DNA of 64,000 nucleotides from Actinomyces provencensis. GTDB taxonomy: Bacteria; Actinomycetota; Actinomycetes; Actinomycetales; Actinomycetaceae. The notes below the pieces were generated by a model, which made no database searches, had not been told where the DNA came from, and saw only the letters and a list, made by a program, of their open reading frames with translations. The position numbers and the translations under genes are program-made. Positions 56,798 through 62,938 of this stretch are shown here, one piece after another (the first letter of the stretch is position 1; each line of letters starts with the position of its first letter). The DNA lies in NCBI RefSeq assembly GCF_900155435.1, contig NZ_LT700212.1:1261857-1325856 (forward strand), in the 5' to 3' direction.

Positions 56798-56912
56798 GCG
56801 AAGTCCGCTCTGTTCAAGGGTCGAAGTCCGCTCTGTTCGACCCGTGAGGTCCGCTCAGTTCTGACCTCGAAGTCCGCTCTGAAGTGACCGCGACGTCCGT
56901 CCCGTCGTGTCG
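56798..56912 (+). repeat. Left array: five 23-bp units
   Basis: The core GTCCGCTC occurs at 56803, 56826, 56849 and 56872 with a degenerate fifth copy at 56895: exactly 23 bp apart. Typical units contain GAAGTCCGCTCTGTTC. The innermost unit is the most diverged. Confidence 0.95.
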
Positions 56913-57044: not shown

Positions 57045-57159
57045 GGGAAGGGATGAGCGGACCTCATGCCCCGAAGTGAGCGGACCTCATGCCCCGAACA
57101 GAGCGGACTTCGATCCCCGAAGTGAGCGGACTTCGAGGTCAGAACAGAGCGGACTTCGG
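57045..57159 (-). repeat. Right array: five 23-bp units in opposite orientation
   Basis: The reverse core GAGCGGAC occurs at 57055, 57078, 57101, 57124 and 57147, again exactly 23 bp apart. Some units form a dyad (GAAGT-N6-ACTTC). Together with the left array this makes a giant imperfect inverted repeat. Confidence 0.95.
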
Positions 57160-60540: not shown

Positions 60541-60609
60541 GTCGAACAGCGTCAACGGAGGTCAGGCGTCGAGCAAGGCTCGTCGTCGAGCAAGGTCAGT
60601 CGTCGAGCA
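60541..60609. repeat. Short repeats around the nrdR stop codon
   Basis: GTCGAGCA or GTCGAACA occurs at 60541, 60568, 60585 and 60602, spaced 27, 17 and 17 bp. On the minus strand the units read like duplicated copies of the last codons of nrdR, most with a TGA. Confidence 0.65.
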
Positions 60610-61351
60610 GCGTCGGGGCGTCGTCCTTGGGTGTGCGACGGCGGCGACGCGCAGGACGTGTCTGCCGGGTGCTCCTGCCTGCTGTGTCGTCTGCTCCCGC
60701 GGGACCAGCACTCGCGGTACCGGTGGCGGTTCCACCCGGTACGGCGCGCCCTGCGGGATGAGGATCGTCGTCGCTCCCCTGTGGCGCGCCCTGCGCGTCA
60801 CCTGTGTGGGCGTCGGATCCAGGGGTGCTCACCGCGCGTCGAGGGTCGTCCGCACCAGCCTGCGCCTCATCATCGGACCCGTCAGTGGCGTGGGCAGCGA
60901 CCCGCGCATCCCGCGCACGCAGCTCCCCGATGGCCTCCTCGAAGTCATCGAGCGAGTTGAAGCTGCGGTAGACGGAAGCGAAGCGGAGGTAGGCGATCTC
61001 GTCGAGCTCCGAGAGGAAGGGGAGGATGGCCTTCCCGACCTCGGCGGTTGAGACACTGGAGACCCCGGTCGAGCGCAGTGCCTCCTCGACCTGTTGGGCC
61101 AGCAGTGCCAGGTCGTGGTCCGAGACCGGCCTGCCCTGGCAAGCCTTGCGCACGCCGGACACCACCTTCTCCCGGGAGAAGGGCTCGACCACACCGGAGC
61201 GCTTCACCACCTGGAACGAGGACGTCTCCAGCGTGGTGAACCGCCGTTTGCAGGCGGTGCACTCGCGCCGGCGGCGGATGGAGGCGCCATCATCGGCGAT
61301 CCGGGTGTCCACGACACGCGAATCTTCGTTGTGGCAGAAGGGGCAGTGCAC
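60596..61351 (-). CDS. nrdR: Ribonucleotide reductase repressor NrdR with C-terminal extension
   Basis: ATP/dATP-sensing repressor of ribonucleotide reductase genes. The zinc ribbon has Cys at residues 3, 6, 31 and 34 (HCPFC and CTAC), followed by the ATP-cone ([18 protein letters not shown]) to about residue 150. The protein then continues for about 100 residues as an acidic Gly/Ala/Asp-rich segment ending in a basic cluster ([13 protein letters not shown]), so it is 251 rather than about 150 residues. GTG 61351 has GGAGG 6 nt upstream and places the zinc ribbon at the very N-terminus. Confidence 0.93.
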
Positions 61352-61495
61352 GTGTAACCTCCGTCGGGAACCTGCCCCAACGCTACGTTCCCACACGTCC
61401 CATGTGCAACACACACCACAGGCAGTGCTCCACACCCGTCCCCGGTCGAGACTCCCCCCTCACGGAACCGACCCACCGGTCGGTATCCCTGGGTC

Positions 61496-61999
61496 TCACT
61501 GCCCGGGCAGGACCAGCTCCGTACCCGGGGTGAGCACCGCGTCGCTGCCGTCCAGGCCGTTGAGCTCCTGGATGTCCAGGACGACCTGCTCCAACGGGCG
61601 TTGGGAGTTGACCTGGTCCGCCAGCCCCCACAGGGACTCGCCCGCGGCGACGGAGTGGACATGGGTCGGCCCGGCGTAGGGGTCGGGCTGCGCGAGGAGC
61701 CCCGCACCTGCCCCGAGACCGCCTGCCACCGCAACGGCGACGACGGCGAGGACCACCCTGCGCACCACCTGGAGCGCTGCGGGACGCGCAGCGGTTTCCT
61801 CCCGGACACGTGCGCGCACGACGGGACGACGGCGCATCGCCGGGTCCTCGGCGAGCTGGGCTGCGCGCCGCCGACGCGCGGAGGGAGCCGAGGAGATCGC
61901 ACGGATCTCCGCGACACGGGACTCGGGCACGGCGCGCAGTCGGGGCCGATCCCCGCGCTGGTGTGCCGACCTCGTGGGTACCACATTGATCGCGCTCAT
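61496..61999 (-). CDS. LysM-domain membrane protein divergent from lexA
   Basis: A 167-residue protein with a basic Arg/Ala-rich cytoplasmic part (to about residue 70), one hydrophobic helix ([20 protein letters not shown]) and an external LysM domain ([20 protein letters not shown]) that binds peptidoglycan. The layout and the divergent position next to lexA match YneA-type SOS division inhibitors of Gram-positive bacteria, although sequence similarity cannot be shown here. ATG 61999 has GGAGGAG upstream. SOS boxes overlap its promoter, so it should be induced by DNA damage. Confidence 0.8.
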
Positions 62000-62022
62000 G
62001 GCTGCTCCTCCGTTCGTCCACG

Positions 62023-62038
62023 TCGAACACGCGTTCGT
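62023..62038. promoter_or_regulatory. SOS (LexA) box 1
   Basis: TCGAACACGCGTTCGT matches TCGAAC-N4-GTTCGA at all but the last base. It lies 24 nt before the LysM gene start. Confidence 0.75.
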
Positions 62039-62053
62039 CGAACACCTGTACGA
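62038..62053. promoter_or_regulatory. SOS (LexA) box 2
   Basis: TCGAACACCTGTACGA has one mismatch to the consensus, adjoins box 1 and overlaps the LysM gene -10 element. Confidence 0.75.
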
Positions 62054-62079
62054 TACACTGGTCCCCGAGGGAATGTCGA
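62050..62079 (-). promoter_or_regulatory. Promoter of the LysM gene
   Basis: Minus-strand TCGACA (62074-62079) and TATCGT (62050-62055) are 18 bp apart, close to the -35/-10 consensus; box 2 covers the -10. Confidence 0.55.
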
Positions 62080-62086
62080 GACCCGC

Positions 62087-62102
62087 TCGAACATGTGTTT
62101 CA
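62087..62102. promoter_or_regulatory. SOS (LexA) box 3
   Basis: TCGAACATGTGTTTCA keeps the left half-site perfectly and most of the right. It lies just upstream of a TAACCT -10-like element (62122-62127), so it probably controls lexA itself. Confidence 0.65.
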
Positions 62103-62209
62103 CATCCGTGTCGGACTCGCATAACCTGAGGACATCAGTGGAACAGCACCCATGTGCATCTGCGTCCGGCGACGGACGCGGCAGTTCACGGACGACCAGG
62201 AGGGCCACC

Positions 62210-62938
62210 GTGCACGAAGAGCCGAACCTCTCACCCCGTCAGATCCAGATCCTCGAGGTCGTCCGCGCCAGTGTGGACGGACACGGGTACCCACCCTCGG
62301 TCCGTGAGATCGCCGACCGGGTGGGGCTCGCCTCACCCTCGACGGTCAAGCACCACCTGGACGCGCTGGAGCGCGCGGGCTGCCTCCAACGTGTCCCCGG
62401 CCGCCCTCGTGCCCTGGAGGTCTCGACCCTGGGCCGCGCCGCACTGCCCACCCCGGCCGGCGCGACCGGGCAGGCGTCCGCGCCGACACCGGGCACGGAC
62501 GACGGGGTCGCAGCACCCCCCGCGCTCGTCACCGTCGAGGTCGCCGTCTCACACGCCGACGAGGACGCCTCCGCGGTACCACTGGTCGGCAGGATCGCAG
62601 CTGGCTCACCCATCACCGCCGAACAGCACGTGGAGGACGTCTTCGAGCTGCCCACCTCACTGACGGGACGCGGCGACCTCTTCATGCTGGAGGTGCGCGG
62701 GGAGTCCATGGTGGACGCCGGGATCCTGGACGGGGACTACGTCGTCGTGCGCGCCCAGGCCACCGCCGAGGACGGCCAGGTGGTGGCCGCCATGATCGAC
62801 GGTGAGGCCACGGTCAAGGTCCTCTCCCACACGGGCGGACACGTGTGGCTGATGCCGCGCAACACCGACTACTCCCCCATCCCCGGCGACGAGGCCACTG
62901 TTCTGGGAAGGGTCGTGACGGTCATCCGCTCCCTGTGA
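62210..62938 (+). CDS. lexA: SOS repressor LexA
   Basis: Represses DNA damage genes and cleaves itself when RecA is activated. The winged-helix N-terminus includes [12 protein letters not shown] and [20 protein letters not shown]. Cleavage would occur at Ala131-Gly132 (RIAAGSP), with catalytic Ser166 (GESMVDAG) and Lys203 (GEATVKVL). GTG 62210 has AGGAGG 6 nt upstream. A 45-residue Ala/Pro-rich linker makes it slightly longer (242 residues) than usual. Confidence 0.96.

Follow-up and report, generated by a model that had tools for sequence, protein, structure and literature searches.

SOS Division Inhibitors Encoded beside lexA

In Gram-positive bacteria, SOS division inhibitors sit divergently beside lexA (PMC6851548; PMC3989709), and in these accounts both this kind of gene and its place, as seen in YneA, ChiZ, DivS, and SosA, are already known. 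The membrane helix of YneA, which interacts with FtsW, localizes to the division site, and the protein blocks septal wall synthesis, an inhibition that needs binding of LysM to peptidoglycan; the LysM residues D46 and T47 are needed for wall binding (PMC13396833). ChiZ (Rv2719c) of Mycobacterium tuberculosis adjoins lexA, carries a C-terminal extracellular LysM, and has been reported to hydrolyze the cell wall (PMC3989709; PMC6851548). It is predicted to act like YneA (PMC13396833) and interacts with FtsI and FtsQ, but its LysM is seemingly unnecessary (PMC3989709), so that these sources disagree on the need for LysM. DivS of Corynebacterium glutamicum is an SOS-induced division suppressor encoded beside lexA (PMC3989709; PMC6851548) and described without a LysM domain (PMC6851548). 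SosA of Staphylococcus aureus, from a different phylum, is encoded divergently from lexA, is LexA controlled, and has a single membrane helix and, as described, no LysM (PMC6851548). Streptomyces is described as being without clear homologs of the known inhibitors (PMC9380542).

As for the DNA that controls such genes, half-motif conservation and scattered extra sites were reported before actinobacterial lexA, with the suggestion of a change in LexA specificity or of monomer binding in Actinobacteria (PMC2248561). Among the matches listed in our literature search, no title or abstract opening mentions a tandem LexA operator for a lexA–inhibitor pair of Actinobacteria. One may nevertheless have been published, the main papers on DivS, Rv2719c, and the C. 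glutamicum LexA regulon lying outside the search.

The lexA Locus of Actinomyces provencensis

The window analyzed here is a stretch of 64,000 nucleotides from Actinomyces provencensis, at the end of which three genes lie in the order nrdR, LysM gene (both on the minus strand), and lexA (plus strand). The product of lexA (62210–62938, plus strand; 242 amino acids) contains the Pfam domains LexA_DNA_bind and Peptidase_S24 and scores 231.7 bits with TIGR00498 (cut-off 110.95). Divergent from it, the LysM gene (61496–61999, minus strand; 167 amino acids) is preceded by a ribosome-binding site recognized from the sequence, GGAGGAG (62005–62011, minus strand), and has its nearest named relative, 71% identical by tblastn, in Actinomyces polynesiensis. 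On the same strand and 3' of the LysM gene lies nrdR (60596–61354, minus strand; TIGR00244 155.1 bits, cut-off 124.65). The resulting order, lexA–LysM gene–nrdR, is what we take to be the gene order in mycobacteria (ChiZ/Rv2719c). A terminator-like site stands between the LysM gene and nrdR (61439–61418), and an nrdR-like motif was seen 3' of the LysM gene in 94 of the 140 class loci with sufficient DNA; SOS read-through from the LysM gene into nrdR is possible.

Elsewhere in the window, 23-nt tandem repeats form two inverted arms (56799–56881 and 57055–57158), with a unit of about AGCGGACTTCG-N4-C-N-GAA. Genome-wide, this unit gave 346 matches (178 and 168 by strand, at most one mismatch), many of those listed being in short runs at 23-bp steps, and its reversed pattern gave 1 and 1. 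Each of the 14 genus and 7 order genomes searched held 0–3 matches. The unit is a dispersed repeat that does not occur in bulk in the relatives searched.

The LysM protein consists of a basic N-terminal tail, one predicted membrane helix, and a LysM that ends the protein. Its tail includes a motif of the genus (residues 36–59, ending in DPAMRRRP; 61823–61894, minus strand), which follows the pattern SAPSxRRR...DPxxxRRP and recurs, with variation, in most of the genus proteins listed; the start sites of these relatives were chosen by a script and some look wrong (L014, L017, and L024). The helix (residues 74–101; 61697–61780, minus strand) reaches a hydropathy of 2.19 in the 19-residue stretch starting at residue 82 and also appears, at low confidence, in an AlphaFold model that is poor outside the LysM (mean pLDDT 64.6, pTM 0.35). 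LysM (residues 115–165; 61505–61657, minus strand) is the only Pfam domain of the protein (E-value 1.3e-5) and is modeled as strand-helix-helix-strand, with pLDDT values of 76–90 in this block. The best Foldseek matches were mostly LysM-containing structures, although weak (best E-value 0.042), and searching the PDB with the LysM protein sequence returned nothing at an E-value of 0.01. Given the basic N-terminus, the tail is predicted to lie inside and LysM outside. An earlier note on this DNA had proposed one membrane helix with an external LysM domain, the layout of YneA-type inhibitors; the sequence agrees with this, for the helix through hydropathy and the low-confidence model, for the predicted orientation through the basic tail, and for the layout through the order of tail, helix, and C-terminal LysM, encoded divergently from lexA. 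Among class relatives, counts were made on 131 proteins, 17 of the 148 being left out because they are without the LysM start motif as written: a strong hydrophobic segment precedes LysM in all 131, an LTRRGR-like motif precedes the helix in 94, and the first Gly of LysM lies a median of 47 residues from the C-terminus.

Because this layout and location match those of the Gram-positive SOS division inhibitors, the gene is of a known kind, and it probably encodes an SOS division inhibitor of the YneA/ChiZ type. The best NCBIfam model is that of YneA, NF010723, which aligns to the LysM part only and gives 28 bits against a cut-off of 60; the protein was therefore rejected as a YneA equivalog, and membership of the DivS group was rejected because a LysM is present. 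A tblastn search with the window protein reached Bacillus loci, one of which (L064) encodes a protein that scores 90.4 bits as YneA. Bacillus YneA resembles the window protein in its one helix and external LysM, and its gene in being divergent from lexA with LexA-like boxes upstream. However, the L064 boxes (1, 2, and 2 mismatches) are 30 and 39 bp apart, with no 15- or 16-bp tandem, and the long basic cytosolic tail of the window protein is absent from Bacillus YneA. Should D46 and T47 of YneA fall in the G-D-T of LysM, their counterparts in the window protein are E121 and S122, which are conservative changes, of a type found in 21 of the 131 scored class proteins.

LexA Boxes and Promoters between the Two Genes

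The predicted LexA box consensus is TCGAAC-N4-GTTCGA, and the 187 bp before the lexA start contain three boxes, which carry no strand assignment. Box 1, TCGAACACGCGTTCGT (62023–62038), has one mismatch to TCGAACNNNNGTTCGA; box 2, TCGAACACCTGTACGA (62038–62053), has one mismatch to the palindrome, overlaps box 1 by one base, and stands 15 bp from it; box 3, TCGAACATGTGTTTCA (62087–62102), has two mismatches. Single matches at up to three mismatches are cheap, since the window holds 43 of them against 22.6 expected. At up to one mismatch, the genome contains 29 sites versus 3 for the reversed pattern, and boxes 1 and 2 are the only pair among the 29 that are less than 100 bp apart. There are six perfect boxes in the genome. 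One precedes, by 12 bp, an error-prone-polymerase-like gene, of which a 496-amino-acid fragment was read, four are just before DUF222 genes (L033, L034, L035, and L059), and the remaining one precedes a reading frame without a Pfam match. Because a perfect box precedes the error-prone-polymerase-like gene, this consensus very likely represents the motif that LexA uses in the genome, as judged from sequence.

A scan of positions 61300–62260 yielded one sigma-70-like promoter, TCGACA-18-TATCGT (62079–62050, minus strand), the mean for shuffled controls being 0.0. Among 35 genus loci, its −35 (62074–62079, minus strand) reads TCGACA 25 times and TCGACT 4 times, and its −10 (62050–62055, minus strand) reads TATCGT 31 times; two of the four loci without TATCGT are those that were read in the wrong orientation (L012 and L288), LexA being recognized in 31 of the 35. 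Boxes 1 and 2 span this −10 and the predicted transcription start: box 2 shares four bases with the −10, its sole departure from the palindrome being the last T of TATCGT, and box 1, on the LysM side, is just downstream. For lexA, we propose on sequence grounds a −35, TTCACA (62099–62104, plus strand), and a −10, TAACCT (62122–62127, plus strand), both absent from the list of the promoter scan; box 3 overlaps this −35 and departs from the palindrome there. Read in the direction of the LysM gene, box 3 starts with TGAAAC in 28 and TCAAAC in 5 of the 35 genus loci, the remaining two being the misread L012 and L288, so that its departure is conserved, and the distance from box 3 to box 2 is 48 or 49 bp in 32 of them. 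Mismatches to the palindrome that coincide with bases required by the promoters are thus kept across the genus loci, as is typical of a functional promoter-operator. The LysM gene, like members of the SOS inhibitor family, has predicted LexA sites at its promoter. The earlier claims of three boxes fitting the consensus, two of them over the LysM gene promoter, are borne out, although "fit" is a somewhat loose word for box 3.

Between box 3 and the region of the LysM −35, and including this −35, lies a further block (62074–62090), GAGCGGGTCTCGACA, which forms a TCGAG-N5-CTCGA inverted repeat and is well conserved in many genus loci.

Distribution of the Tandem Operator

Boxes 1 and 2 are spaced by 15 bp in all of 24 genus loci, and a genome-wide search retrieved the 15-bp tandem from 35 of 35 genus genomes, the A. 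provencensis genome included. At zero or one mismatch, each genome has one such place, except G010, which has two; at two mismatches, five genomes have one additional place each. The reversed 15-bp pattern gave 11 places across five genus genomes. In G010, the LysM gene and its three boxes are present in duplicate (L015 and L030), 4.7 kb apart and with equal match scores, which reflects either a duplication or an assembly fault.

We extended the comparison to the class. Of 89 order and 108 class genomes, two sets that overlap, 86 and 105, respectively, yielded a LexA, and upstream DNA was collected for 176 loci (L069–L244), several LexA matches being outside this set; after seven loci with an unrecognized LexA motif were dropped, 169 loci from 168 genomes remained. 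A sequence counted as a site if it had at most 3 mismatches in 12 positions (at most 2 in the inner 10). A divergent LysM gene adjoins lexA in 148 of the 168 genomes. Tandems with a spacing of 15–17 bp are present in 99 of these 148 (23 at 15 bp, 72 at 16 bp, and 4 at 17 bp), as well as in 4 of the 20 genomes without a recognized LysM gene, and 34 of 48 families include at least one tandem genome. Spacings between adjacent sites peak at 15–16 bp and at 52–53 bp; a spacing of 14 bp never occurs and one of 18 bp occurs twice. No 15–17-bp pair was found in 2,960 dinucleotide-shuffled upstream regions, which were 500 bp long, the survey regions reaching about 740 bp. At up to one mismatch, genome-wide searches for the 16-bp tandem gave matches in 57 of 148 class genomes, one in each, and the reversed pattern gave none in the 148. 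All 57 sites adjoin lexA, as established by a LexA motif in the locus (30), coordinates (21, at most 1,153 bp off), or DNA retrieved later (5); for the last one, lexA is about 2.4 kb away and a LysM gene is alongside.

The architecture is not obligatory, because 49 of the 148 LysM genomes and 14 of the 48 families showed no tandem at the survey thresholds. Families f5, f6, f19, f20, and f40 are among the latter: the LysM gene is present and the tandem is in none of the genomes examined, indicating that the architecture can be lost or replaced.

Among the exceptions are four loci of one genus (L198, L202, L211, and L212), which we call mycobacteria-like because the C-terminal domain of the L211 LexA is near-identical to PDB 6a2q, presumably the M. 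tuberculosis LexA; the other three share the genus label. The mycobacteria-like relatives resemble the window protein in having a long Arg-rich cytosolic tail and one helix, but all four of these loci are without a 15–17-bp tandem. Three of them contain exact matches to TTGTCRGTG-N8-TAnnnT, the PafBC-type promoter motif, and L212 has neither tandem nor motif. Rv2719c is reportedly damage inducible independently of RecA, according to the title of one paper, with which the motif in these loci agrees. At one mismatch, the motif also occurs in the tandem-less f40 loci L201, L236, and L238 and in the tandem-bearing L115; because L115 has both, tandem and motif are not strictly exclusive. The window differs from these three mycobacteria-like loci here: TTGTCRGTG-N7..9-TAnnnT was not found at up to one mismatch in the first part of the motif, and a PafBC promoter was rejected on this basis.

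Other exceptions concern the protein. In L101, L113, and L114, from the mycobacteria-like family, the tandem is kept before a gene for a predicted cytosolic tail and membrane helix, seemingly with no LysM (for L101, the reading frame was one chosen among several); these proteins resemble the description of DivS (PMC6851548). The fourth LysM-negative tandem locus, L120, is on a short contig.

A Probable LexA-Gated Division Checkpoint

We consider, with good confidence, that the locus as a whole is an SOS division checkpoint, in which a LysM inhibitor is gated by LexA; binding of LexA, induction by damage, and division arrest at this locus are what we infer from the comparisons above. LexA on box 3 would damp its own gene, and two adjacent LexA dimers, one on box 1 and one on box 2, would obstruct RNA polymerase where the LysM gene has its −10 and start. 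Upon DNA damage, RecA would trigger self-cleavage of LexA, both sites would become empty, and the LysM protein would be made and inserted as a single-pass protein, with its tail inside and LysM outside. Its helix may then dock on the late division machinery, as in YneA of Bacillus subtilis, and LysM may bind the new septal wall, septum synthesis stopping until repair is done. By analogy, this helix-led docking with LysM wall binding is the likeliest mode of action here. The abutting dimers would hold the inhibitor gene tighter than lexA and release it later.

Under this reading, boxes 1 and 2 serve the LysM gene, and box 3 serves lexA. All three could instead serve lexA autoregulation, with the LysM gene as a bystander, given that none of them is farther than 187 bp from the lexA start and that lexA is preceded by multiple LexA sites elsewhere. 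However, in the two loci where other DNA parts the genes, by about 2.2 kb in L292 and 1.0 kb in L181, the LysM gene keeps the tandem and additional sites in front of it, and a single TCAAAC-type box remains beside lexA; in family f35, no LysM gene was found in six of six genomes and one box is left. These split loci, together with f35, are our reason for the assignment, which the earlier note had already made and in which the boxes stay with their own gene; they led us to reject the assignment of all boxes to lexA, which is very improbable. If f35 is Streptomyces, its missing LysM gene fits the published statement on that genus. Equally improbable, in our view, is that the boxes are chance matches or loosely conserved half-sites, bound through a half-motif or by monomers. 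The stronger conservation of the half-motif, and the question of monomer binding raised with it (PMC2248561), speak for half-sites, as do the 82 of 506 half-sites that have no partner half. On the other hand, 424 of the 506 belong to sites with both halves at up to three mismatches, a pairing that is partly circular because one half is given, and the spacing peaks at 15/16 and 52/53 bp, with no 15–17-bp pair in the shuffled regions, also argue against half-sites. Chance was rejected on the shuffled regions and on the sole close pair genome-wide.

A third alternative accepts SOS induction of the LysM protein but has it act on the wall, by hydrolysis or remodeling, any division defect being secondary. 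It finds support in the report of ChiZ as a cell wall hydrolase (PMC3989709; PMC6851548). Against it, Pfam sees LysM alone in the protein, which LysM ends, and the reported mode of action of YneA is a block of septal wall synthesis by way of FtsW and binding to the wall (PMC13396833); we regard this alternative as improbable, if less so than the two above.

Beyond the window, we see about even chances for a broader reading of the LexA-gated inhibitor, in which, class-wide, one inhibitor promoter per genome is under two abutting LexA operators that cover its start and lexA under one weaker box, with what follows from this for thresholds, half-motifs, and PafBC. With 15 or 16 bp between the operator centers, the two dimers would be expected on different faces of the DNA helix. 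If this reading is true, division arrest would be the SOS output that needs the fullest loss of LexA, with a built-in threshold or delay, and the tandem would account for much of the half-motif signal that was once read as a specificity change or monomer binding; tandem sites that are the operator of the neighboring gene would be a simpler account of this signal. Where the tandem was lost, control may have moved to PafBC (mycobacteria), and in the three genomes of L101, L113, and L114, LysM would be gone with tandem and membrane helix staying.

The operator appears to be the new part of this locus, the kind of gene being known. With this gene, the known checkpoint family would take in Actinomyces and, judged by where the genes lie and how their proteins are laid out, a large part of the actinobacterial class. 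Where present, the tandem would be a one-per-genome signature that flags the SOS division inhibitor in unannotated genomes, LysM-less versions included. It would also provide a timing model, in which arrest comes last, or only after heavy damage.
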